Positions 26,497 through 64,000 of a DNA stretch of 64,000 bases are shown here, piece by piece. A program made the position numbers and the translations under genes. Every line of letters starts with the position of its first letter. Position 1 is the first letter of the stretch. Where the stretch lies: the NCBI RefSeq assembly GCF_947494015.1, contig NZ_CANLTL010000004.1:240291-304290 (forward strand), given 5' to 3'. The stretch is from an uncultured Cellulomonas sp. Its GTDB lineage: Bacteria > Actinomycetota > Actinomycetes > Actinomycetales > Cellulomonadaceae. The notes beneath the pieces were generated by a model. It was not told where the DNA came from. It searched no databases and saw only the letters and a list, made by a program, of their open reading frames with translations.

Positions 26497-28424
26497 CCGA
26501 GCACACCACCGACACCACCGGCGACGACACGCAGCGTGGGGGGCCGGCCGCTCCCGAGACCCCCGAACCCGTCGCCGACTCGCCGGACACGTCGCCGTCC
26601 GCGGCGACGGAGGCCACCGACGAGCCGACCGACGCCGCGCAGACCACCGAGCCGGAGGCCGACGGCGCACCAGCCGAGCCGGAGGCCGACGCCGCAGCAG
26701 CCGAGGCCGAGCCGGACGCCGCCCCCGTGGTCCCGGCGTCCGACGAGGCGCCCACTCCCGACGTGCCGTCCAGCGAGACGTCGGACGCGCGAGGCGACGG
26801 GCTGGCCGTGCCCGCGGCAGAGGCCGCCGGACTCACCGCCCCGGACCCCGACGCCGCGCCGGCGGACCAGGCGCGGGTGGCGCCGGCGGAGCCCGGGGCG
26901 ACGACGTCCGTGGACGCGGACCAGCTGGCCGAGCCCGCGACGGAGGCCGTCGAGGCCCCCGCGGAGCCGGCCGGCACCGCGGACACCGCGCCGTCGTCAG
27001 GCACCGCGCCGTCGTCAGGCACCGCGCCGTCGTCAGGCACTGCGCCGTCGCCGCGTCCGGCACCGCGCCCCATGCCGCGGCCGGTGCCCCGCCCGTCCGC
27101 GCGAGCACCGCAGGCCCCGACCGCCGCGGCCGCGCCCGCGGCGCCCGTCGCCCCGCCGCAGGACGCCGCCGAGGCCGCACATGCCGCGACCTTCGGCCGG
27201 GTCGACGACGAGGGCACCGTGTACGTCCGCGAGGGGGACGGCGAGCGTGCCGTCGGGCAGTTCCCGGGTGCGACCGCCGAGGAGGCGCTGGCGCTGTACG
27301 TCCGCCGGTACCTGGACCTGCACGCGAAGGTCGTGCTGTTCGAGGCGCGGATCGGCTCGGCCGACCTGCCGGCCAAGGAGGTCGACCAGACGCTCGCCAA
27401 GCTCACCGAGGAGCTCGCCGAGCCGGCGGCCGTCGGCGACCTCGAGGGGCTGCGCGGGCGCCTGGAGGCGCTGCGGTCCGTCGCGGCCGAGCGTCGTGCC
27501 GCGGCCGACGCCGAGCGGGCGGCCGCGAAGGAGGCCGCCGTCGCTGCGCGCACCGCCATCGTCGAGCAGGCCGAGAAGATCGCCGGCACCGACCCCGAGC
27601 GGATCCAGTGGCGGCCGGCCGGCGAGCAGCTGCGCCAGCTGCTCGACCAGTGGAAGGACGCCCAGCGCCACGGTCCGCGCATCGACCGGCCGACCGAGGA
27701 GTCGCTGTGGAAGCGGTTCAGCCACGCGCGCACCACCTTCGACCGTGAGCGGCGGCACTTCTTCGCCGAGCTCGAGAGCCGCAACGCCACGGCCCGCGCG
27801 GCCAAGGAGGCGCTCGTCGCACAGGCCGAGCGCCTGTCCGCGAGCACCGACTGGGGCGTCACCGCCGGGGCGTACCGCGACCTGATGGCGCAGTGGAAGG
27901 CCAGCGGCCGCGCGAGCCGCAAGGACGACGACGCGCTCTGGGCCCGGTTCCGCGCCGCGCAGGACGCCTTCTTCTCCGCGCGCGACGCCGCCTCCGCCGA
28001 GACCGACGCCGAGTTCCGGGCGAACCTCGAGGTCAAGGAGGCGCTGCTGGTCGAGGCCGAGCGGCTGGTGCCGATCAAGGACCTGGCCGCAGCCAAGTCG
28101 GCGCTGCGCTCGATCCAGGACCGGTGGGACGCGGCGGGCAAGGTCCCGCGCGCCGACCTCCAGCGTGTGGAGGGCCGGCTCCGGGCGGTGGAGAACGCGG
28201 TCCGCGACGCCGACCAGTCGGCGTGGACCCGCGGCAACCCCGAGACCCGGGCCCGCGCGGAGGGTGCGGCCGCGCAGCTCGAGGCCGCGATCGCGGGGCT
28301 GCGGGCGGACCTCGAGGCCGCCCAGGCGGCCGGGGACGCCCGGCGCATCGCCGAGGCCCAGGCCGCGCTCGACGCGCGCACCGCCTGGCTCGAGCAGGTC
28401 CGGCGCGCGGCCGAGACGTCCTGA
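26493..28424 (+). CDS. DUF349 domain-containing protein with long disordered N-terminus
   Basis: Repeated W..AG..R.L..QWK....R..R..D..LW.RFR.A.D.FF motif. Confidence 0.9.
   Translation: MTEHTTDTTGDDTQRGGPAAPETPEPVADSPDTSPSAATEATDEPTDAAQTTEPEADGAPAEPEADAAAAEAEPDAAPVVPASDEAPTPDVPSSETSDARGDGLAVPAAEAAGLTAPDPDAAPADQARVAPAEPGATTSVDADQLAEPATEAVEAPAEPAGTADTAPSSGTAPSSGTAPSSGTAPSPRPAPRPMPRPVPRPSARAPQAPTAAAAPAAPVAPPQDAAEAAHAATFGRVDDEGTVYVREGDGERAVGQFPGATAEEALALYVRRYLDLHAKVVLFEARIGSADLPAKEVDQTLAKLTEELAEPAAVGDLEGLRGRLEALRSVAAERRAAADAERAAAKEAAVAARTAIVEQAEKIAGTDPERIQWRPAGEQLRQLLDQWKDAQRHGPRIDRPTEESLWKRFSHARTTFDRERRHFFAELESRNATARAAKEALVAQAERLSASTDWGVTAGAYRDLMAQWKASGRASRKDDDALWARFRAAQDAFFSARDAASAETDAEFRANLEVKEALLVEAERLVPIKDLAAAKSALRSIQDRWDAAGKVPRADLQRVEGRLRAVENAVRDADQSAWTRGNPETRARAEGAAAQLEAAIAGLRADLEAAQAAGDARRIAEAQAALDARTAWLEQVRRAAETS
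26990..27043 (+). repeat. 3x18-bp in-frame tandem repeat (PSSGTA) in DUF349 gene
   Basis: GCCGTCGTCAGGCACCGC repeated three times (last copy with one substitution). Confidence 0.9.
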
Positions 28425-54538: not shown

Positions 54539-54610
54539 GGGCGATTGGCGCAGCGGTAGCGCGCTTCCCTGACACGGAAGAGGTCACTGGTTCGATCCCA
54601 GTATCGCCCA
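54539..54610 (+). tRNA. tRNA-Val(GAC), probable integration target
   Basis: GGGCGATTGGCGCAGCGGTAGCGCGCTTCCCTGACACGGAAGAGGTCACTGGTTCGATCCCAGTATCGCCCA. Confidence 0.97.
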
Positions 54611-54631
54611 CCAGCACCACCGCAGGTCAGG

Positions 54632-54659
54632 GGCCGTTTCGGAGAGATCCGGGACGGCC
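54632..54659 (+). terminator. Hairpin downstream of tRNA-Val
   Basis: GGCCGT-tt-CGGA-gaga-TCCG-gg-ACGGCC followed by TTT. Confidence 0.55.
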
Positions 54660-54681
54660 TTTGTGCTGCCCAACCGGCTTC

Positions 54682-54701
54682 GCTAGTCAAACTGCTAGTC
54701 A
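54682..54701. repeat. GCTAGTCA direct repeat at integrase 3' end (candidate arm-type site)
   Basis: GCTAGTCA-AACT-GCTAGTCA, 12-bp periodicity, second copy includes int stop codon. Confidence 0.5.
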
Positions 54702-55858
54702 TCGGTGTGCCCCCCGTCCGAGCCGAAGATGTCGTCCATCGCCCGAGCGCCGCGGGTGAGCACCGGCCGGAGCTCCTTGCGGTACACCGTCTCGGTCACC
54801 TTCGTGCTGGCATGACCGACCAGGTGGGCGATGTCCTCGATCGGCACCCCCGAGCTGGACATGACCGAGACGAAGCTGTGCCGCAGCTCCCGCGGGGTCC
54901 AGTCCTCCGCAGGCAGCCCCGCGGCCGCCACGACGGCTCTGAACCCCCGCCGGACGTTCGCCGCGTCCAGGGGCGTCCCGGTCCGGCTGGCGAACACGAG
55001 GCCATGCTCGCGCCATCGCTCCCCCGCCTCCCGTCGCCACGTCTCCTGCAGCTCGCGGTGCGTGCGGAGAGCGACGACTGCCCGAACGGGTAGCTCGATG
55101 GTTCGGCGCGACCGCCGTGTCTTCGTGTCTCCGTCACTCCGCACCGAACGCCACAGCTCCACGGTGGGCGGCACGTCGGGAGGTCGCCCCTCGAGGTCGA
55201 CGTGCTCCCATCGCAGAGCCCGCAGCTCCTCTGTCCTGGCCCCGGTCAGCAGCGACACCACGACGTACGCGTGCATCGGTGAGCGCTCCGACGCCGTGAT
55301 GACCCGCTTCGCCTGTTGCAGGGTGAGCGACTTGGAGGGCCGGCCCACCTGACCTCGAGGCACGTCGCACAGCAGTGCGACATTCCGACCGACGAGATCA
55401 CGTGCTTCCGCTCGCCGGATCGACATCCTCAAGATCGACAGAAGGCGCTTCACCGTGTCGGTGCTCAGAACCTCAGCCCGACCCGCCAGCCAGGTCTCCA
55501 CCTCTGCGGCGGTCAACGCGCTCAGACGTCTCGCACCGAGCTCGGGGAGCACGTGTGTGATGGCGAGGCTTCGGCGGTTCGCCACCGTGCTATCCCCTCG
55601 GCCGACAAGGCCGTGGTCGAGCCACGACTCGACGGCCTCGCGAACGGTGTACGCGTGTCGCTCGGCCGCGAGTCCGGCGTCCTGCACGCGCTGCGCGTCG
55701 CGGAGCTTCGCCCGGACCTCCGTCTTGGTGCGGCCGCTGATCCACTTAACGCGTCGCTTCCCGTTCGGCCAGTACCCCAGTGAGACGAGCCCGACCCAGC
55801 GTTGGCGCGACTCGTTCCAGTAGAGGCTGCCCTCGCCGTAGCTACGCCGCGCGCCCAC
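54695..55858 (-). CDS. int: Tyrosine recombinase/integrase
   Basis: LTGARTEELRALRWEHVD, ELRHSFVSVMSSSGVPIEDIAHLVGHASTKVTETVYRKEL catalytic R..HxxR..Y. Confidence 0.95.
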   Translation of the reverse strand: MGARRSYGEGSLYWNESRQRWVGLVSLGYWPNGKRRVKWISGRTKTEVRAKLRDAQRVQDAGLAAERHAYTVREAVESWLDHGLVGRGDSTVANRRSLAITHVLPELGARRLSALTAAEVETWLAGRAEVLSTDTVKRLLSILRMSIRRAEARDLVGRNVALLCDVPRGQVGRPSKSLTLQQAKRVITASERSPMHAYVVVSLLTGARTEELRALRWEHVDLEGRPPDVPPTVELWRSVRSDGDTKTRRSRRTIELPVRAVVALRTHRELQETWRREAGERWREHGLVFASRTGTPLDAANVRRGFRAVVAAAGLPAEDWTPRELRHSFVSVMSSSGVPIEDIAHLVGHASTKVTETVYRKELRPVLTRGARAMDDIFGSDGGHTDD

Positions 55859-56087
55859 CGTCGCCGCCCGCCGCTCGCATGAGCTCCGCCACGTAGTCGT
55901 CGATCGCCGCTCTGGGCACCAGCCGTCGACGACCGACGGTCACCGTCACCAGCCGACGCGACCTGATCAGCTCGTACAGCTGGGTCCGGCTCAGGTTGAG
56001 CAGCGCCATCGTCTCGGGCACGTCGTACAGCACACGCCCGGGCGTCACCCCCTGCGGCATCAGTGTTGAACCCTTACTCACTGCCAT
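55842..56087 (-). CDS. xis: Excisionase / HTH DNA-binding protein
   Basis: VPETMALLNLSRTQLYELIRSRRLVTVTVGRRRLVPRAAIDDYVAELM MerR-like HTH. Confidence 0.9.
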   Translation of the reverse strand: MAVSKGSTLMPQGVTPGRVLYDVPETMALLNLSRTQLYELIRSRRLVTVTVGRRRLVPRAAIDDYVAELMRAAGGDGGRAA

Positions 56088-57721
56088 CGCCCCCGCTCTC
56101 GTTCGGTCCGCTCCTCTGCCGAAAGACTGTCCACAGCCGCCACGGGCGGGCCGGCACGCTGACAGACAGCGGCGCCGACCATGACCTCACGCGCCCGTTC
56201 GTACTCCGCACGCCACCGCCGCGCCTCGACGACGCTGCCCATCACGACGCGGGCGTAGTCGAGCGCGGACACGGGGACGTCCTGCCAGGTGTAGCGGGGA
56301 AGCCCATCCGTGTGGAGGACCTCCGCTGCCATCCGTTCCGCCGCGGGCGCCTCGATACCGGCGGCCTGAAGCGCCGCTCGGACGACGGCGGCACGGTCCG
56401 CCCGGTGCTCGGTCAAGGTCTTCCCCGACCAGCTCCGCGAGACAAGCACCCGCCGCCCACCGACCCCGAGGTGCTCCCGGTCGTGCGCCTTCGCTGGGCA
56501 TCGCCCCGGCACGAGTCCGGGCCCGGCGTTGTACGGCTGGACTCCGAAGCGGAGCCAGTTCGCGCACTCCTTGGAGCAGGGCAGCCAGCGGACCTCGTGG
56601 TGCAAACGGTCGATATGGGCCTCATAGGCGACGTCCACCGCGTCGTCATCGGCGTACGTCTCCGCGACCGCCTTAGTGAGGTACTTCGTCAGGTACCGCA
56701 CCGCGCGATCGGCGTCCGGAGTCCCGCCGACGATGCCCTTGATGTCGACCTGCGAGCCGAGCCGCATGACGTGCGCAGGTCTCGTGCCCGGCAGTTCGTC
56801 GCCGAGGGCGTCGACGGCCTGCTGCCAGGTCGGCAGCGCCATACCGGTGTCCGGGTCGCGGTAGTCGGCGCCATCCCACACCGGGAGGCGGTGGTCGTAC
56901 ACCGGGGTCTCCATCTGCGGCCACCACAGCTGAAAGTACGTGGCTTTCGTGACAGCCCTGAGGGTGGCTCTCGGGATCGCGCCACGGATGGCGACGTGGA
57001 AGTGCGGCGCGAGGCGGCGTTGCGCCTCCACAGCACCGAAGTACTGCGCCCTGTAGCCCGCGCAGCGGCGCAGGTTCTGCACCCACCGATCCAGCAGCTT
57101 CGAGAAGTGGAGAGCATCCAACGCGGCACGACGGTAGTCGTACCGAGCTGGGTCGACCGGCGCGCCGGTGAACGGGCGGACCTTGCCGTACGACGGAAGT
57201 GTCAGCGTCACGAACATCGACGGCTGGTACATCTTGCCGTCGGGAGCCGTGAAGGTCCGGCCGACGGTCCGGTTCTCGACCGGACGAGTGGGCAGGTCCG
57301 GAGCGTCGGCGCGGCGACGGGTCGACCGCGTCTGACGCGCAACCTCGTCGCCAACGTCCTCTTGCTCGCCGGCGTCGTTCTCCTCGGCCGGGCAGCTGTC
57401 GGGGCCGCCCGCGTGCTCCACCGTGGCGGGATCCACGGCAGGCTCGACGGCGGCGTGCCAGCCCTCCGCGCACTGCGTCATCCGTAGGCGGCGCGCGTTG
57501 GACGCGCAGCTCGGGCATCGGGACTCGCGAGTCGATCCGCACCGGATCGCGACCGTGGTGACGACCCCGGTGGCACGGTCGGTGACCCGCCGGACGACAG
57601 GACGAACACAGACCGCCTGCTCGATCGCCAACTCACGCACCACGTCGTCGCCGATAGCCGGCCTGCTGGCGCGTCCCGATGCGAGCGCCGGAGCGCGCCG
57701 CTCGGCAAGGAGAGTCGTCAT
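56078..57721 (-). CDS. repSA: Rolling-circle replication initiator, RepSA-like
   Basis: MFVTLTLPSYGKV, PHFHVAIRGAIPR (HUH), RYLTKYLTKAVAETY; CxxC N-terminal region. Confidence 0.9.
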   Translation of the reverse strand: MTTLLAERRAPALASGRASRPAIGDDVVRELAIEQAVCVRPVVRRVTDRATGVVTTVAIRCGSTRESRCPSCASNARRLRMTQCAEGWHAAVEPAVDPATVEHAGGPDSCPAEENDAGEQEDVGDEVARQTRSTRRRADAPDLPTRPVENRTVGRTFTAPDGKMYQPSMFVTLTLPSYGKVRPFTGAPVDPARYDYRRAALDALHFSKLLDRWVQNLRRCAGYRAQYFGAVEAQRRLAPHFHVAIRGAIPRATLRAVTKATYFQLWWPQMETPVYDHRLPVWDGADYRDPDTGMALPTWQQAVDALGDELPGTRPAHVMRLGSQVDIKGIVGGTPDADRAVRYLTKYLTKAVAETYADDDAVDVAYEAHIDRLHHEVRWLPCSKECANWLRFGVQPYNAGPGLVPGRCPAKAHDREHLGVGGRRVLVSRSWSGKTLTEHRADRAAVVRAALQAAGIEAPAAERMAAEVLHTDGLPRYTWQDVPVSALDYARVVMGSVVEARRWRAEYERAREVMVGAAVCQRAGPPVAAVDSLSAEERTERERGRWQ

Positions 57722-59205
57722 GCCGCGCTCCGCGTCTCTGCTGCCGTCATGTCCGCCGACGTCCCGTACTCCGCGACGAGCGCGTCGATGTGTTGGTCGG
57801 TGAAGTGCGGGAACCGCACGCGCAGAGGTTCAGCGACCCCCTCGATGCCGACGTACCCGGTCCCGGGCATGGACTCAGCGATCCGGTCGCACCGAGCTCC
57901 GCGATCGCGCGCTCCCGCTCCGAGCACCAGCGCGACCTGGTCAGCCTCCGACAATCGCAGGGCGATCCTGGTCGGGAACAGGTCCCGGACAGTGACAACC
58001 TCTTTGCGGGGATCTTGAACGGCGCCGACCACGCTCACACCCACCGCGCGGCCCTGCGACAGCAGCAGCGACAGCGCCGCACCGATACGTCGCTTCGCTT
58101 CCCGATCGGTGATGTACGCGGTGAGGTTTGCCAGCTCGTCGATCAGGACCACGATCAGCGGCTCCTCCTCCGTCGGGCTGTGGAGTCGGGTGATCCCCCG
58201 CAGGCGTGCCTGGCGTCGCCGCATGATCGAGACGGCGTCCTCCAACGCCCGCGCGAACTCGATCTCGTAGTCGCCGCCGTCATCCGGATCGCCGTAGACG
58301 AATCGGTCGAACAGCGGCCTCCCCGCGGCCAGCTCCATGCCACCCTTCGGGTCGAGCGCCCACACCCGGGCCGTGCGGTCGCGGATGGCCGGCGCCAGGC
58401 CCGCGACGATGGCCCAGAGAACCGACCCCTTGCCCGATCCCGTTGCACCGACCACGAGCACATGACTTCCGAGAAGGCGAAGCCGATAGCGCCGTCCGTC
58501 CTCTTGGACAGCAACGGCCAGCGCCGCGGCGTCCGAGGTGCGGGACCGAAACGGTGAGACCTCCGCCAGGAGCATGTCTGCCACAAGAAGCCAGAGCTCG
58601 AGGTCTCGGCTCCGTCCGGGAACGGTGCGAACTCGACACTCCGGCACGCCGAAGGTCTGCGCCAGGCGTGGAGCTCGACCAGTCCAGTCCTCGAGGACCT
58701 GGCCTGCGAGCATCCGCACGCGTACTCGGTCCACACCAGCCCGACTGCGCACGCCGACCAGCGCCGGTAGCCGCCGCTCCCCGTTGATGCCGGCGTCAAG
58801 TCCCGTCGTCACCATGGCGGTTTCCCAGGCGGGGCGGTACACGCGCGCCGACCGCCACGAGCCGGCTATGCGCTCCGTCACCCAGGCGGAGAAGGTTTCC
58901 GGCGCCCGGAGTCGCCACGTCGCGAGAAGCGCGGCGCTGATCGCCGCTCCCACGGCGAGGGCGCCAACGCCGTGCTTGGTCGCCATCCACACGACGACGG
59001 CCACCACCACACTCCCCGCCCCGAATCGGCGGTGACGCGACACCCAGCGCATCGCGCCAAATATTTGGCGCAGCGCCACCCGGGCAGCGCGGAGGCTCAG
59101 TGGAACCAGCCGCACCAGTGCGGCCAACGCCGAGCCGGCCATCACGCACAGTGCGACGACGCCGATGGCCCACACGGCGCCTACGCCACCTTGGTTGAGA
59201 ACGAC
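57718..59205 (-). CDS. FtsK/SpoIIIE-like conjugative dsDNA translocase, TraSA-like (start uncertain)
   Basis: LVVGATGSGKGSVLWAI Walker A, LIVVLIDELANL Walker B; two N-terminal hydrophobic segments. Confidence 0.9.
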   Translation of the reverse strand, partial: VVLNQGGVGAVWAIGVVALCVMAGSALAALVRLVPLSLRAARVALRQIFGAMRWVSRHRRFGAGSVVVAVVVWMATKHGVGALAVGAAISAALLATWRLRAPETFSAWVTERIAGSWRSARVYRPAWETAMVTTGLDAGINGERRLPALVGVRSRAGVDRVRVRMLAGQVLEDWTGRAPRLAQTFGVPECRVRTVPGRSRDLELWLLVADMLLAEVSPFRSRTSDAAALAVAVQEDGRRYRLRLLGSHVLVVGATGSGKGSVLWAIVAGLAPAIRDRTARVWALDPKGGMELAAGRPLFDRFVYGDPDDGGDYEIEFARALEDAVSIMRRRQARLRGITRLHSPTEEEPLIVVLIDELANLTAYITDREAKRRIGAALSLLLSQGRAVGVSVVGAVQDPRKEVVTVRDLFPTRIALRLSEADQVALVLGAGARDRGARCDRIAESMPGTGYVGIEGVAEPLRVRFPHFTDQHIDALVAEYGTSADMTAAETRSAA

Positions 59206-59633
59206 GTGCTGGAAGCACTCTTCGCCGATGCCATCCCGTCGGCACGGAATGACCACGCCGACTGGGCCCGACAGCGGTGCGGCCTCCCTGGCTCCGGGGC
59301 GGCGCAACGCGACGAGTCGACCCATGGCGTCGCCGTGAGGTTCTCGAAGATCACCAGGGTGAACGGAGACGCCCCGTCGTTGGCCGGCGGCACCGGCTGG
59401 TGCTTCGCCGCGATCTTGACCGTAACGGTCTTGGACTTCTTCGGCGCGTCCGGATCGGCATCCAGCACGTCGACCGACCAGACCGGCAGACCGCTGTCCT
59501 TGTCGACGTCCTGCACCTTCGTCTCCCGAGTCGACTTCTCGAAGTCGTGCACGGGCGTTACCTCCGAGACGAGGTACGCACCCATCGGGAAGACGTCGTT
59601 GTGAGCGACCTTGAACCTGCGTGCCAGTGCCAT
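59181..59633 (-). CDS. Pra-like plasmid replication/integration/excision activator
   Basis: RFKVAHNDVFPMGAYLVSEVTPVHDFEKSTRETKVQDVDKDSGLPVWSVDVLDADPDAPKKSKTVTVKIAAKHQPVPP, typical of AICE Pra family. Confidence 0.82.
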   Translation of the reverse strand: MALARRFKVAHNDVFPMGAYLVSEVTPVHDFEKSTRETKVQDVDKDSGLPVWSVDVLDADPDAPKKSKTVTVKIAAKHQPVPPANDGASPFTLVIFENLTATPWVDSSRCAAPEPGRPHRCRAQSAWSFRADGMASAKSASSTSFSTKVA

Positions 59634-59724
59634 TGCGTTCCCCTTCCGCGGCCAGAGCCCCAGCGGCTCAGGACCATGGGACTGCTCGCCGCCAGGACGA
59701 GAACACCGCATGGAGGGACGTTTT

Positions 59725-59734
59725 AGGACGTCCT
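59725..59734. promoter_or_regulatory. Candidate operator in divergent pra / HTH-PLD promoter region
   Basis: Perfect palindrome AGGACGTCCT, preceded by GGGACGTTTT and followed by TTGACA (59739-59744) and CCGTCCC. Confidence 0.45.
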
Positions 59735-59773
59735 TCCATTGACAATCCGTCCCAACGAGCGGACCGTCGTGGC

Positions 59774-60532
59774 ATGGCCAATGAGAGGCTGCGATCCGCC
59801 ATCGCCGTATCCGGACTCACCGCGTCAACCCTGAGCGCGCGGGTTGGCGTCGATCCGAAGACCATCGAGCGGTGGGTCGCCACCCACCGAACGCCGCATC
59901 CGGCCAACCGCCAAGCGCTGTGTGCCGCCCTCAACCGCGACGAGGAATTCCTCTGGCCGAGTCTCGTGTCGACGACCCGCGCTCAGTCGGCCAGCCAAGC
60001 GGAAGTCGTCGCTGTGTACGCCAACCGCGCGTCGGTCCCCCCGGGCACGTGGCAGTCGCTGATCGAGGGCGCGAGGGAGTCCATCGACGTCCTCGCCTTC
60101 GCCGCTAGCTTCCTCCACGACACGATTCCCGACTTCCACCAGCTCCTCGTCGCCCGTGCCCACGCAGGGGTGCGTGTTCGTCTGCTCTTCGGCGATCCGA
60201 ACGGGGCTGCCGTCCGACTCCGCGGAGAGGAAGAAGGCATCGGGGGCTCACTGGCCGACAAGTGCACGCTCACGTGGAAGTACGCGCGCCGATGCCTCGC
60301 TACTCCCGGGCTCGAGGCGCGCGCTCACGACACGACGCTCTACTCGTCGATCTTCCGCTGCGACGAGGATCTCCTCGCGAACACCCACACCTACGGCTCC
60401 CCAGCGAACCAGGCACCGGTCGTGCACTTGCATCGCGTCGCCGGCGGCCGGCTGTTCGCCAACTTCATGGACTCGTTCGACCGCGTGTGGCAGACGGCCC
60501 GCACTGTCGACGGGTCGTACACGCTCGCGTAG
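59774..60532 (+). CDS. XRE-type HTH regulator with C-terminal phospholipase D-like (DUF5919-like) domain
   Basis: RSAIAVSGLTASTLSARVGVDPKTIERWV HTH; ARESIDVLAFAASFLHDTIPDFHQLLVARAHAGVRVRLLFGDPNG PLD-like fold. Confidence 0.82.
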   Translation: MANERLRSAIAVSGLTASTLSARVGVDPKTIERWVATHRTPHPANRQALCAALNRDEEFLWPSLVSTTRAQSASQAEVVAVYANRASVPPGTWQSLIEGARESIDVLAFAASFLHDTIPDFHQLLVARAHAGVRVRLLFGDPNGAAVRLRGEEEGIGGSLADKCTLTWKYARRCLATPGLEARAHDTTLYSSIFRCDEDLLANTHTYGSPANQAPVVHLHRVAGGRLFANFMDSFDRVWQTARTVDGSYTLA

Positions 60533-60542
60533 CGTCGCGGTC

Positions 60543-61013
60543 ATGGCTCGGATCGACTACGTCGACGACCCCAACGCACCCGCCGCCAACAGCGTCGTGC
60601 CGTCGGTCGTCGCCATCGTCACCGACGACCAGGGGCGGGTCCTCCTCATCCACAAGACCGACAACGACCTCTGGGCGCTGCCGGGTGGCGGACACGAGAT
60701 CGGCGAGTCGATCGCCGACACCGTCGTCCGCGAGGTCAAGGAGGAGACCGGCTACGACGTCGTGGTCGACCGTGTCACCGGCCTCTACACGAACCCTCGT
60801 CACGTCATGGCGTACGACGACGGCGAGGTGCGCCAGCAGTTCTCGATCGCTTTTCGCGCTCGTCTGCGGGGCGGGTCACCGCAGACCAGTAGCGAAAGCA
60901 AGGCCGTCGAGTGGGTCGCCCCCCACCACATCGACACGCTGCCGCTCCACCCCTCCATGCGGCTCCGCATCGTACACGCGCTAGAGGACAGACATACGCC
61001 GTACGTCGGCTAG
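60543..61013 (+). CDS. NUDIX hydrolase (pSAM2 Pif-like context)
   Basis: LPGGGHEIGESIADTVVREVKEETGYDVVVDRV Nudix box. Confidence 0.92.
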   Translation: MARIDYVDDPNAPAANSVVPSVVAIVTDDQGRVLLIHKTDNDLWALPGGGHEIGESIADTVVREVKEETGYDVVVDRVTGLYTNPRHVMAYDDGEVRQQFSIAFRARLRGGSPQTSSESKAVEWVAPHHIDTLPLHPSMRLRIVHALEDRHTPYVG

Positions 61014-61547
61014 CGCGACCCGCCTTGACGCTCTCTCCGAAGCTTGACGAAGCCCCGGCATCGCCCGCTCAACCGCACGGAACACGGCGTCGTCCCGCTC
61101 GTACCGCGCGAAGATCTCAGCGAACCGCTCATCGATCGACACGAGCTCGCCGTCGGGGCCCGATGTCATGTCGGCCCACACCAGAACGTCCAGCAGGTCC
61201 TCCGGTGGGGCAGCGAACTCAGAGAGCTCCCGAGAAAGCCCCCGCTCGTCCGCTTCGATGGCGGCTCCGGAATGATGTGCGACGAGCGACACAACCAGCT
61301 CGCTCGTGCCGCATCGACGTAGGTAGCGGGCTCCGTCGAGGGCGTGAAAGCCCGTGTCCATGATCGCGCGGCCGTAGCCGACGTCGTGCAGCCACGCCGC
61401 CGACCCAACGTCCTCGGGCAGCGCGAGCAGCTGGCACGCCGCTTCGGCTCGGCGGCCGACGGTACGGACGTGTGACCACCGCGGCTCCATCCCGCCGACG
61501 TGCCGACGCGCCACCTCCTCGGCGGCTCCCCACGCCGCAAATCCCAT
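60981..61547 (-). CDS. HD domain metal-dependent phosphohydrolase
   Basis: RWSHVRTVGRRA...AAWLHDVGYGRAI...LVAHHSGA; 33-bp convergent overlap with NUDIX gene. Confidence 0.88.
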   Translation of the reverse strand: MGFAAWGAAEEVARRHVGGMEPRWSHVRTVGRRAEAACQLLALPEDVGSAAWLHDVGYGRAIMDTGFHALDGARYLRRCGTSELVVSLVAHHSGAAIEADERGLSRELSEFAAPPEDLLDVLVWADMTSGPDGELVSIDERFAEIFARYERDDAVFRAVERAMPGLRQASERASRRVALADVRRMSVL

Positions 61548-61773
61548 GAGCTCACCGTAGCTACCGCTCCTGACACTTTGAGCTACCGCGGTCGAGGACG
61601 CCGACGCCTCGAGCCTGCGCGCACGGTCCGCGGCATGAGCGAACGCCGGCAGCGCAGCCTCGTGGTGGCATGACCGTCGTCTCCTCACCTCTGGTGCAGT
61701 CTCAACCCGATGCGAGGTGGCCAGATCTAAGCCGTCGCCATACCTGCCGTCGCGCTCGAGCTGCCCACCCACT

Positions 61774-61965
61774 TCATCGGGCCGGGCGGCTCGTTAGCCA
61801 TGCGGTACCGGCGCCTACGCCGAAACCAACCCAGAAGCACACGAACCAGACCCAGGCGGCCGAGTCGAAGACAAACTCACTCAGCGCGACCCCAATAAGT
61901 CCGGCGGGCACCGCCGCGACGAAGCCCCATTGCACTAGCCGACGTGATCGCACGTTGTTGGTCAC
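61774..61965 (-). CDS. Small two-TM hypothetical protein
   Basis: VTNNVRSRRLVQWGFVAAVPAGLIGVALSEFVFDSAAWVWFVCFWVGFGVGAGTAWLTSRPAR. Confidence 0.55.
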   Translation of the reverse strand: MTNNVRSRRLVQWGFVAAVPAGLIGVALSEFVFDSAAWVWFVCFWVGFGVGAGTAWLTSRPAR

Positions 61966-62196
61966 GGCGCCATCATGCCCGACTCGTCCCGCCGCATTTT
62001 GCAGCGGGCACACCCGGACGAGCGAACCTCGGGCCTTCGGCTAGGGCACGGTCATCGGCACGACCGACCAAGCCCGACACTGACCGTCGAGCCGCGCGCG
62101 ACGTGCGGCATGACCGCGCGCCCGACGACCCTGCTGTGGTCGACGTCAAGAGAGCGCATAGCGCCGCCTGGCGTCCGCACGGTCTAGCCTCCGGGC

Positions 62197-62475
62197 ATGT
62201 CACAGGACGAGAAGCGCCCGGAGGTGCCGGCTCACGAGGTGCTCGGTGACCTCACGGTTGCCCCGCTACCGGCCGGCGGAGTCGCGGAGGCCGCGTTCCT
62301 CATGGTCAAGTTGGACAACGGCGAGTGGTGCGCGCGGAGTGTAGGCGCGTTGTACAACCGCGTCGAATTCCTTGGCCAGCTGGTGGCGTACACGCACGCT
62401 CTCACTCGGGACGAGGCTGCCGGTTGGTTCGATGACAGTGAGACCGCCGCGGAGGACGGCGCCGCGGGCTCGTGA
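62197..62475 (+). CDS. Hypothetical protein (92 aa)
   Basis: MSQDEKRPEVPAHEVLGDLTVAPLPAGGVAEAAFLMVKLDNGEWCARSVGALYNRVEFLGQLVAY... Confidence 0.65.
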   Translation: MSQDEKRPEVPAHEVLGDLTVAPLPAGGVAEAAFLMVKLDNGEWCARSVGALYNRVEFLGQLVAYTHALTRDEAAGWFDDSETAAEDGAAGS

Positions 62476-62556
62476 GCAAACGCCGCCGGGACAGCGGCAT
62501 TACCGCGCGGACGATGCGGCGCTCGACCAAGCGGCATCCGCTGCTAGAGGCAACCG

Positions 62557-62901
62557 CTACCGATGACCGCTGCCCCTGGTTTGCGCCGTCGCGGCGCCGC
62601 TGACCCGCCAGTTGAGAGACGTATCGGCAGCCAACGGCTCCCACTCGGTCCATCCGGCGTCCTCACGGCGACGGCGGACAATGCCAGTAGGCGACTTATC
62701 GATACCGCGGACCTCAGCTGGTCCGACGACGCGAACGGGGCGAGCGTCGTTGCGGATCTGCTTCTTGTGGAGCCCTGCGGCGCGGATGCGTCGGGTCGCC
62801 TCTACCGGCTTGCTCGCGGCCACCGCCACCTCTGCTGTCCAACTGCCCGCGTCGGCGTCTTCGACTTCGAAGACGTACACCTGCTCCATGTCCAGCAGCA
62901 T
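62557..62901 (-). CDS. Hypothetical protein (~114 aa)
   Basis: MLLDMEQVYVFEVEDADAGSWTAEVAVAASKPVEATRRIRAAGLHKKQIRNDARPVRVVG... Confidence 0.6.
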   Translation of the reverse strand: MLLDMEQVYVFEVEDADAGSWTAEVAVAASKPVEATRRIRAAGLHKKQIRNDARPVRVVGPAEVRGIDKSPTGIVRRRREDAGWTEWEPLAADTSLNWRVSGAATAQTRGSGHR

Positions 62902-63036
62902 CGCAGGCAGCACAACGGTGCGCCCGTGCAGCGGCAGATCCGGGCGAGCGTAGCCGCCCTCAACGCGGCATGTGCGGACGCGCGGCCAGGTCGACTTCCG
63001 TCTTCGCGTCTCGGGTCCGGACACTACGGTTGCACG

Positions 63037-63465
63037 ATGGGTACATGGGGGACTGGACCATTCGACAACGACACCGCTGCCGACTGGGCGGGCGACTTCG
63101 AAGAGGCCGATGTAGCTGCGCGCCCTGCGATGATTCGCGATGCTCTGGCGGCGGCCGCGGACGCCGAGGACTACCTGGACGCGGACGATGCCATGGCGGC
63201 TCTCGCCGCAGCGGCGCTCGTCTCTGCGGCGCAGGCGAACGGGCCGCAGCTGGACGACAACTATGGTCCCGATGCGGCTGCCCTCGAGGGCCTGGATCTC
63301 GGCGAAGGCTTGCGCGTACTGGCAGTCCGAGCCGTGACACGAGTCTTTGGTGCGGACTCCGAGTGGCGTGAGTTGTGGGAGGACGCCGGCGAGCTGGGCG
63401 AGGCCCGCACCGCGCTGGAGCCGATCCTCAGCGCGCTTCGCGACACGGCAGGCGGCGCCTCGTAG
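63037..63465 (+). CDS. DUF4259 domain-containing protein
   Basis: MGTWGTGPFDNDTAADWAGDFEEADVAARPAMIRDALAAAADAEDYLDADDAMAALAAAALVSAAQANG. Confidence 0.88.
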   Translation: MGTWGTGPFDNDTAADWAGDFEEADVAARPAMIRDALAAAADAEDYLDADDAMAALAAAALVSAAQANGPQLDDNYGPDAAALEGLDLGEGLRVLAVRAVTRVFGADSEWRELWEDAGELGEARTALEPILSALRDTAGGAS

Positions 63466-63560
63466 CGGGCCCAAGCGTCACTCGACAGCGGCATGTGCGG
63501 ACGGCGACGGCGCGTGCGCGCGGCGGCAGTGGCGGCAGACATGCACGGCATACTCCCGGC

Positions 63561-63869
63561 GTGCGAGTAGACGGACGGCGAGCAGCCAAAGCGGTGAGTG
63601 CTAGGGCCGTCGAGGTGTCTCGCGTGTTCCCTTCACCGGGCTCGCTCACCGAAGGCGCTGACGACGAGCTGTACGACGCTCTGATCGAAGTCGACGACGC
63701 GCTGGCAGCGATCGCGGGAGGCCTCCGCCGGGATGGCTTCGCCACGGGCGCCTATAACGCTTGCATCGCCACGCTCGACGACGTCCTGTCGAGCAGTGCC
63801 CAAGTCCTGACCGCTGAACAGGTCCGGACGGTCACCCGACTCCGCGAAGCAGTAGCCGCCTTCGGATAG
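63561..63869 (+). CDS. Hypothetical protein (~102 aa, GTG start)
   Basis: VRVDGRRAAKAVSARAVEVSRVFPSPGSLTEGADDELYDALIEVDDALAAIAGGLRRDGFATGAYNACIATLDDVL. Confidence 0.55.
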   Translation: MRVDGRRAAKAVSARAVEVSRVFPSPGSLTEGADDELYDALIEVDDALAAIAGGLRRDGFATGAYNACIATLDDVLSSSAQVLTAEQVRTVTRLREAVAAFG

Positions 63870-63886
63870 CACGGTGCAGCGCTCCG

Positions 63887-63911
63887 CGGCATGAGCGTGA
63901 ACGCTATGCCG
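63887..63911 (+). other. Imperfect hairpin built on the sixth CGGCATGAGCG copy
   Basis: CGGCAT-g-AGCGT-ga-ACGCT-ATGCCG. Confidence 0.5.
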
Positions 63912-64000
63912 CCCGTGCTGCTCAGCGGCTGTTTGTTGCTCGGGTACTGGCTGGCCGGTCACGCTCGGGTAGGTGCTCGGGCCGGGTCGCTCTGTTAGCG

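Follow-up and report, generated by a model that had tools for sequence, protein, structure and literature searches.

In integrons, including the sedentary chromosomal ones and CALINs, cassettes of varied function, most with a single gene, are lined up in directional arrays. A tyrosine recombinase is encoded on the opposite strand with a site beside the start of its gene, some arrays lack a recombinase, and insertion sequences (IS) target the sites. Actinobacteria include many drug producers and carry many mobile resistance genes, and, to our knowledge, integrons are nearly absent from them. A survey with IntegronFinder 2.0 reported no complete integrons in this phylum (PMC9024848). Two further systems offer partial parallels: the pdif modules of Acinetobacter plasmids, which come as C modules and D modules whose sites face either way (PMC13141974), have two-armed, double-stranded boundary sites with short spacers, empty modules and IS targeting, and the IS1111-attC elements of integrons place an IS of a DEDD transposase family exactly inside a cassette-boundary site (PMC11187229).

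The arrays analyzed here appear to share with integrons the features of those systems given above; however, their recombinase lacks an IntI signature and is closer to XerD, their core site, short and two-armed, gives no hint of folding as attC does, genes within the cassettes face either direction, the recombinase gene is frequently found within the array, and the host phylum is almost devoid of integrons. Two-armed, apparently double-stranded boundary sites with a short spacer, empty modules and IS targeting recur here as in pdif modules, but the site is GC-rich, unrelated in sequence and uniformly in direct orientation, a dedicated recombinase gene adjoins the arrays, and the locations are chromosomal and on conjugative elements. 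As in the IS1111-attC elements, an IS sits inside the boundary site, although it belongs to the IS110/IS116/IS902 Pfam family and is actinobacterial, and its site is not attC. We propose, with a probability of roughly 0.8, that the repeats are recombination sites parting mobile gene cassettes in an integron-like system of Actinobacteria that uses an Xer-related recombinase; judged from sequence, this putative system is widespread and previously unrecognised, and is not a classical integron.

The source genome, that of an uncultured Cellulomonas sp., comprises 4.28 Mb in 44 contigs, and the window, that is, the whole 64-kb stretch analyzed, spans C4:240291-304290 and reaches the contig end. The initial annotation had described six + strand copies of an 11-bp motif, CGGCATGWSCG, in the tail of an element there. 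The features of this region, in window coordinates, are as follows.

54589..54613, +, attL at the 3' end of tRNA-Val; an identical 25-mer at C22:14898 is the presumed attR
54695..59325, −, element backbone with integrase, RepSA and FtsK-like transfer protein (Pfam)
61620..61645, +, cassette-boundary site 1 (left arm, spacer, right arm); exact motif at 61631, refined PWM score 20.9
61774..62013, −, cassette 1 ORF, 79 aa, possible two-TM protein; no Pfam match
62045..62070, +, weak companion site 50 bp upstream of site 2; PWM 14.4
62095..62120, +, cassette-boundary site 2; exact motif at 62106, PWM 16.4
62197..62475, +, cassette 2 ORF, 92 aa; no Pfam match
62484..62509, +, cassette-boundary site 3; motif copy at 62495 reads CGGCATTACCG, one mismatch, PWM 19.7
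62557..62901, −, cassette 3 ORF, 114 aa; no Pfam match
62921..62946, +, companion site, start of the 34-bp mini-unit GCGGCAGATCCGGGCGAGCGTAGCCGCCCTCAAC
62955..62980, +, cassette-boundary site 4; exact motif at 62966, PWM 22.2
63037..63465, +, cassette 4 ORF, DUF4259 (PF14078, E=3.5e-29)
63478..63503, +, cassette-boundary site 5; exact motif at 63489, PWM 23.4
63561..63869, +, cassette 5 ORF, 102 aa; sub-threshold Pfam match only
63876..63901, +, cassette-boundary site 6, opening a 39-bp mini-unit; exact motif at 63887, PWM 22.8
63915..63928, +, left half of a seventh site, 39 bp past site 6, split by an IS whose left end follows
63929..64000, +, left end of an IS110-family element within which the contig ends; 92% identity over 76 bp to the copy at C4:170030-171570

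The positions and shared strand of the six copies held, whereas their exactness did not: five are exact and the copy at 62495 is near-exact. The only other exact copy in the window lies at 27176 on the − strand, and the six exact copies compare with a chance expectation of 0.53 for the whole window, a count reached by no shuffle. The spacings of 475, 389, 471, 523 and 398 bp were confirmed, as was the presence of one credible ORF in each interval. The 11-mer is a genuine boundary motif but only half of the site, since a conserved left arm upstream had been overlooked. The 34-bp mini-unit also adjoins unrelated cassettes in other genomes, and the 39-bp mini-unit of site 6 stands in tandem on contig C27. 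No recombinase dedicated to this array is in view in the window, and the array appears to continue on another contig.

A genome-wide count of the exact motif, named beforehand as a check, gave 89 copies, and one of the reversed pattern gave 41; the surplus is located in clusters on C4 (two), C10, C23 and C27, and C17 and C22 carry more copies. Clustered copies were seen in at least seven stretches of the source genome, always in a single strand orientation, and several of the clusters are at contig ends. With the refined matrix, all 41 sites in the array stretches taken from this genome lie on the array strand and none on the other, and the initial matrix found no site in the first 61 kb of the window. 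Tandem 39-bp units with a full site in each occur at a contig end (L012, 17725-17836); their GCGGCATGAGCGTGAACGCTATGCCGC can form a hairpin, unlike most sites.

Iteration over the arrays extended the motif to a 26-bp site, CGCnCGSWC-MGCGGCAT-GWSCGKRCG, in which 9-bp inverted arms enclose an 8-bp asymmetric spacer. The left arm, the reverse complement of the right, emerged from columns -11 to -6, which never entered site selection and hold most of the arm, and it reappeared when the strict right half alone served to choose sites (139 in array orientation, 9 opposed). No covariation of the two arms was detected; they vary independently, and folding of the six window sites as single strands did not exceed shuffles (z-scores -1.4 to +1.5). 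Because the arms neither covary nor fold above chance, the site looks like a protein-bound, double-stranded core of the Xer/Cre type with an asymmetric spacer, and not like a folded integron attC, in agreement with the earlier view that these sites are not classical attC. In addition, an inverted R''-type core partner was not enriched upstream, and an Rfam search of the sites returned nothing. Almost all sites (158/162) are intergenic, and some pairs of sites enclose short units, 34 or 39 bp long and at times in tandem, that resemble empty cassettes. In Actinotalea, tandem 34-bp units, GCGGCAGATCCGGGCGAGCGTAGCCGCCCTCGGT, lie at a contig start (L055, about 20-115, − strand), and the same unit precedes unrelated cassettes in the source genome and others.

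One of the C4 clusters (L009, C4:168001-188000) contains a tyrosine recombinase of 308 aa, P0001, encoded at C4:175155-176078 on the strand opposite to the sites. A search beyond the 64 kb for an IntI-like enzyme had been suggested, and the recombinase found is instead Xer-related. P0001 matches Phage_integrase in Pfam; its nearest curated models are Xer recombinases (XerD, 108 bits) and its nearest solved structure in a PDB comparison is XerD, whereas the integron-integrase model TIGR02249 reached 49.8 bits against a cut-off of 265, over residues 224-287 only, which indicates that P0001 is not an IntI-type enzyme with the extra domain of that family. Similarly, IntI4 can be aligned to it over about 65 C-terminal residues only. 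In an alignment of 22 relatives, R160, K186, H250, R253 and H276 are conserved and Y285 is present in nearly all; these we take to be the catalytic residues expected for the family. A structure prediction was of low confidence at the C-terminal end (mean pLDDT 67.7) and was set aside for that reason. The close P0001 family is patchily distributed: of 397 genomes drawn from across the phylum, 7 had relatives at E<=1e-60, one being the source genome and the other six carrying recombinases of a 45-53% identical kind, and a plasmid collection yielded one 43% match only.

A single scan of named Actinobacteria returned 79 P0001-family loci, with one MAG labelled Acidobacteria, from Cellulomonas, Actinotalea, Kineococcus, Micromonospora, Actinoplanes, Nocardia, Amycolatopsis, Kribbella, Propioniciclava and other hosts. 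When a matrix trained on the source genome only was applied to these loci, leaving out the recombinase gene itself, 158 sites were opposite to the recombinase and 7 on the same strand (p = 2.6e-38), with at least one site in 60 of the 79 loci and none at the threshold in the remaining 19. In the same loci, the reversed matrix gave 6/1 sites and column-shuffled matrices at most 19 hits, usually at most 10; the surroundings of other tyrosine recombinases (98 kb) yielded 1/0. Site density fell from 0.36 per kb beside the recombinase to about 0.06 at 10 kb, and in 12 loci the nearest site was 34-63 bp upstream of the recombinase start. As in integrons, the recombinase is divergent from the array, and in many loci an attI-like site lies near its start; the gene is often inside the array and not at its end, with sites on either side. 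In one congener (G001), a same-strand array encloses a recombinase gene (partial match, 70% identical) on the opposite strand, and another (G003) has several same-strand arrays, one of which contains a recombinase remnant at C10:88173, also on the opposite strand. No such sites were found in the loci of recombinases 45-53% identical to P0001, so that the recombinase-site pairing is specific and the system is confined to a close clade. These motif-free recombinases of other Actinobacteria (L155-L161) may own different sites. A 40% identical recombinase in two frames, with no site nearby (L053, G002 C93), is perhaps a decayed copy or one of other specificity.

Exactly one called gene is present in about half of the site-to-site intervals (52/99), and 65 cassette genes run against the array direction and 53 with it. 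The cargo is diverse, with 86 Pfam families in 121 cassette proteins, mostly singletons, among which GNAT acetyltransferases and hydrolases are commonest. Signs of exchange come from clear breakpoint cases found by inspection. In particular, cassettes common to different arrays break exactly at GCGGCATG; two source-genome arrays share 165 bp at 99.4% identity ending exactly after CACCGCGGCATG, a unit of 286 bp bounded by two sites is common to another pair, and a 1.6-kb recombinase module, 93% identical in two genomes, has its start at GCGGCA and is preceded by unrelated DNA. The broad cassette-end statistic is weak to modest: of the 334 ends of 167 segments common to pairs of array loci, 20 coincided with a site in each partner, and no segment had both ends on sites under strict criteria. 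A whole cassette at very high identity was not found in two species. The DUF4259 gene of the window has matches in 8 of 121 family genomes, including the source genome, and its homologues elsewhere are mostly without flanking sites; being rare in the family and mostly outside arrays, it fits the capture of scattered genes and not a fixed gene order.

The window array comes after an AICE-like backbone beside tRNA-Val, and the 25-mer at the 3' end of that tRNA has its only other exact copy at C22:14898. An IS110-family element is seated in the site core: all four right ends found (C4, C10, C17 and C22) run into ATGWSCG-like right half-sites, one reading ATGGGCG, and a left half-site precedes each of the two left ends found, on C4 and at the window end. 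This placement parallels that of the IS1111-attC elements. The transposase of the C4:170030-171570 copy matches DEDD_Tnp_IS110/Transposase_20. Contig C22 starts with an IS right end and a right half-site, followed by same-strand sites at 1393, 1454 and 4566 and, further on, by transfer-apparatus-like genes (AAA_10 ATPase and M23 peptidase). The orientation fits a single element of about 26 kb, and window 54589-64000 and C22 1-14922 (L144) appear to form it, in the order C4, IS110, C22; from this we infer the join. Such an element would combine the marks of an AICE, namely tRNA integration, an integrase, a RepSA-type initiator and an FtsK-type transfer protein, with its C22 half joined by inference. 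The cassette array and its IS110 copy thus appear to be cargo of an AICE/ICE integrated at tRNA-Val.

We propose that recombinases of the P0001 family (about 308 aa) bind the 26-bp core and exchange strands inside its asymmetric GCGGCAT spacer, so that circular cassettes, each with a single site and most with one gene, would enter, leave or change places in the array in a fixed orientation. Such exchange would leave hybrid sites, with the left arm of one cassette and the right arm of the next, and a directional array. The site immediately upstream of many recombinase genes may act as an attI-like platform, and for the window array the recombinase at C4:175155-176078 probably acts in trans. Several observations count against this model: the 19 loci with no site at the threshold, the frequent position of the recombinase within the array with sites on either side, the mixed direction of the cassette genes, the failure to find a whole cassette of very high identity in two species, the weak cassette-end statistic, the lack of a local recombinase in the window array and the mostly unflanked DUF4259 homologues.

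Several known arrangements could produce parts of this picture. A classical integron, or an integrase-less attC cluster, would combine IntI with folded single-stranded attC sites, and the single-gene units, same-strand sites, opposite-strand tyrosine recombinase, attI-like site near its start and site-targeting IS would all be expected of it. However, P0001 scores far better against XerD than against the integron-integrase model and aligns with IntI4 at its C-terminal end only, the sites show neither excess folding, arm covariation nor an enriched R'' partner, the RYYYAAC/GTTRRRY cores had not been found in the first reading of the sequence, and complete integrons are missing from the IntegronFinder survey of the phylum; this explanation is very unlikely. 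The use of dif-like sites by host XerC/XerD, as in the Acinetobacter pdif modules, agrees with the inverted arms and short spacer of the double-stranded-type core and with the Xer relationship of P0001. We nevertheless consider it improbable, as the present sites are strand-locked, track a dedicated and patchily distributed recombinase and are missing around the other tyrosine recombinases used as controls.

A dispersed repeat family or a regulatory operator, such as a REP-like element or a regulator box, could gather between genes and would likewise be short, intergenic, conserved and partly palindromic. Full strand lock over kilobases, coupling to a recombinase gene, homology breakpoints within the motif, independent variation of the two arms and recurrence in distant genera make such an origin highly doubtful. 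That the AICE integrase or the IS110 transposase is the sole user of the sites is suggested by the integrase in the window and by the seating of IS110 copies; yet the AICE uses the tRNA-Val att site, IS110 is an occasional occupant of sites that exist without it, and arrays elsewhere were mostly found via P0001 and not via an AICE, so that this reading is extremely unlikely. The recombination-cassette array of the initial annotation, possibly an uncharacterised integron analogue, is supported by single-ORF units, same-orientation sites, a phylum-wide recombinase link, breakpoints inside the site and a non-IntI recombinase.

In the open-access literature, to which our search was largely confined, no description of such a system was found. 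We consider it fairly likely that the cassette system proposed here is an actinobacterial gene-capture platform independent of integrons in origin, with an Xer-derived recombinase, double-stranded sites, directional arrays, carriage on conjugative elements, "empty" units of 34-39 bp and mobile recombinase modules. If so, a functional integron analogue in Actinobacteria would mean that cassette capture evolved more than once, and it would account for clusters of unrelated small genes in actinobacterial genomes. Furthermore, the recombinase together with the 26-bp site would provide a searchable signature, and single-stranded (attC) and double-stranded routes to one architecture could be compared directly.
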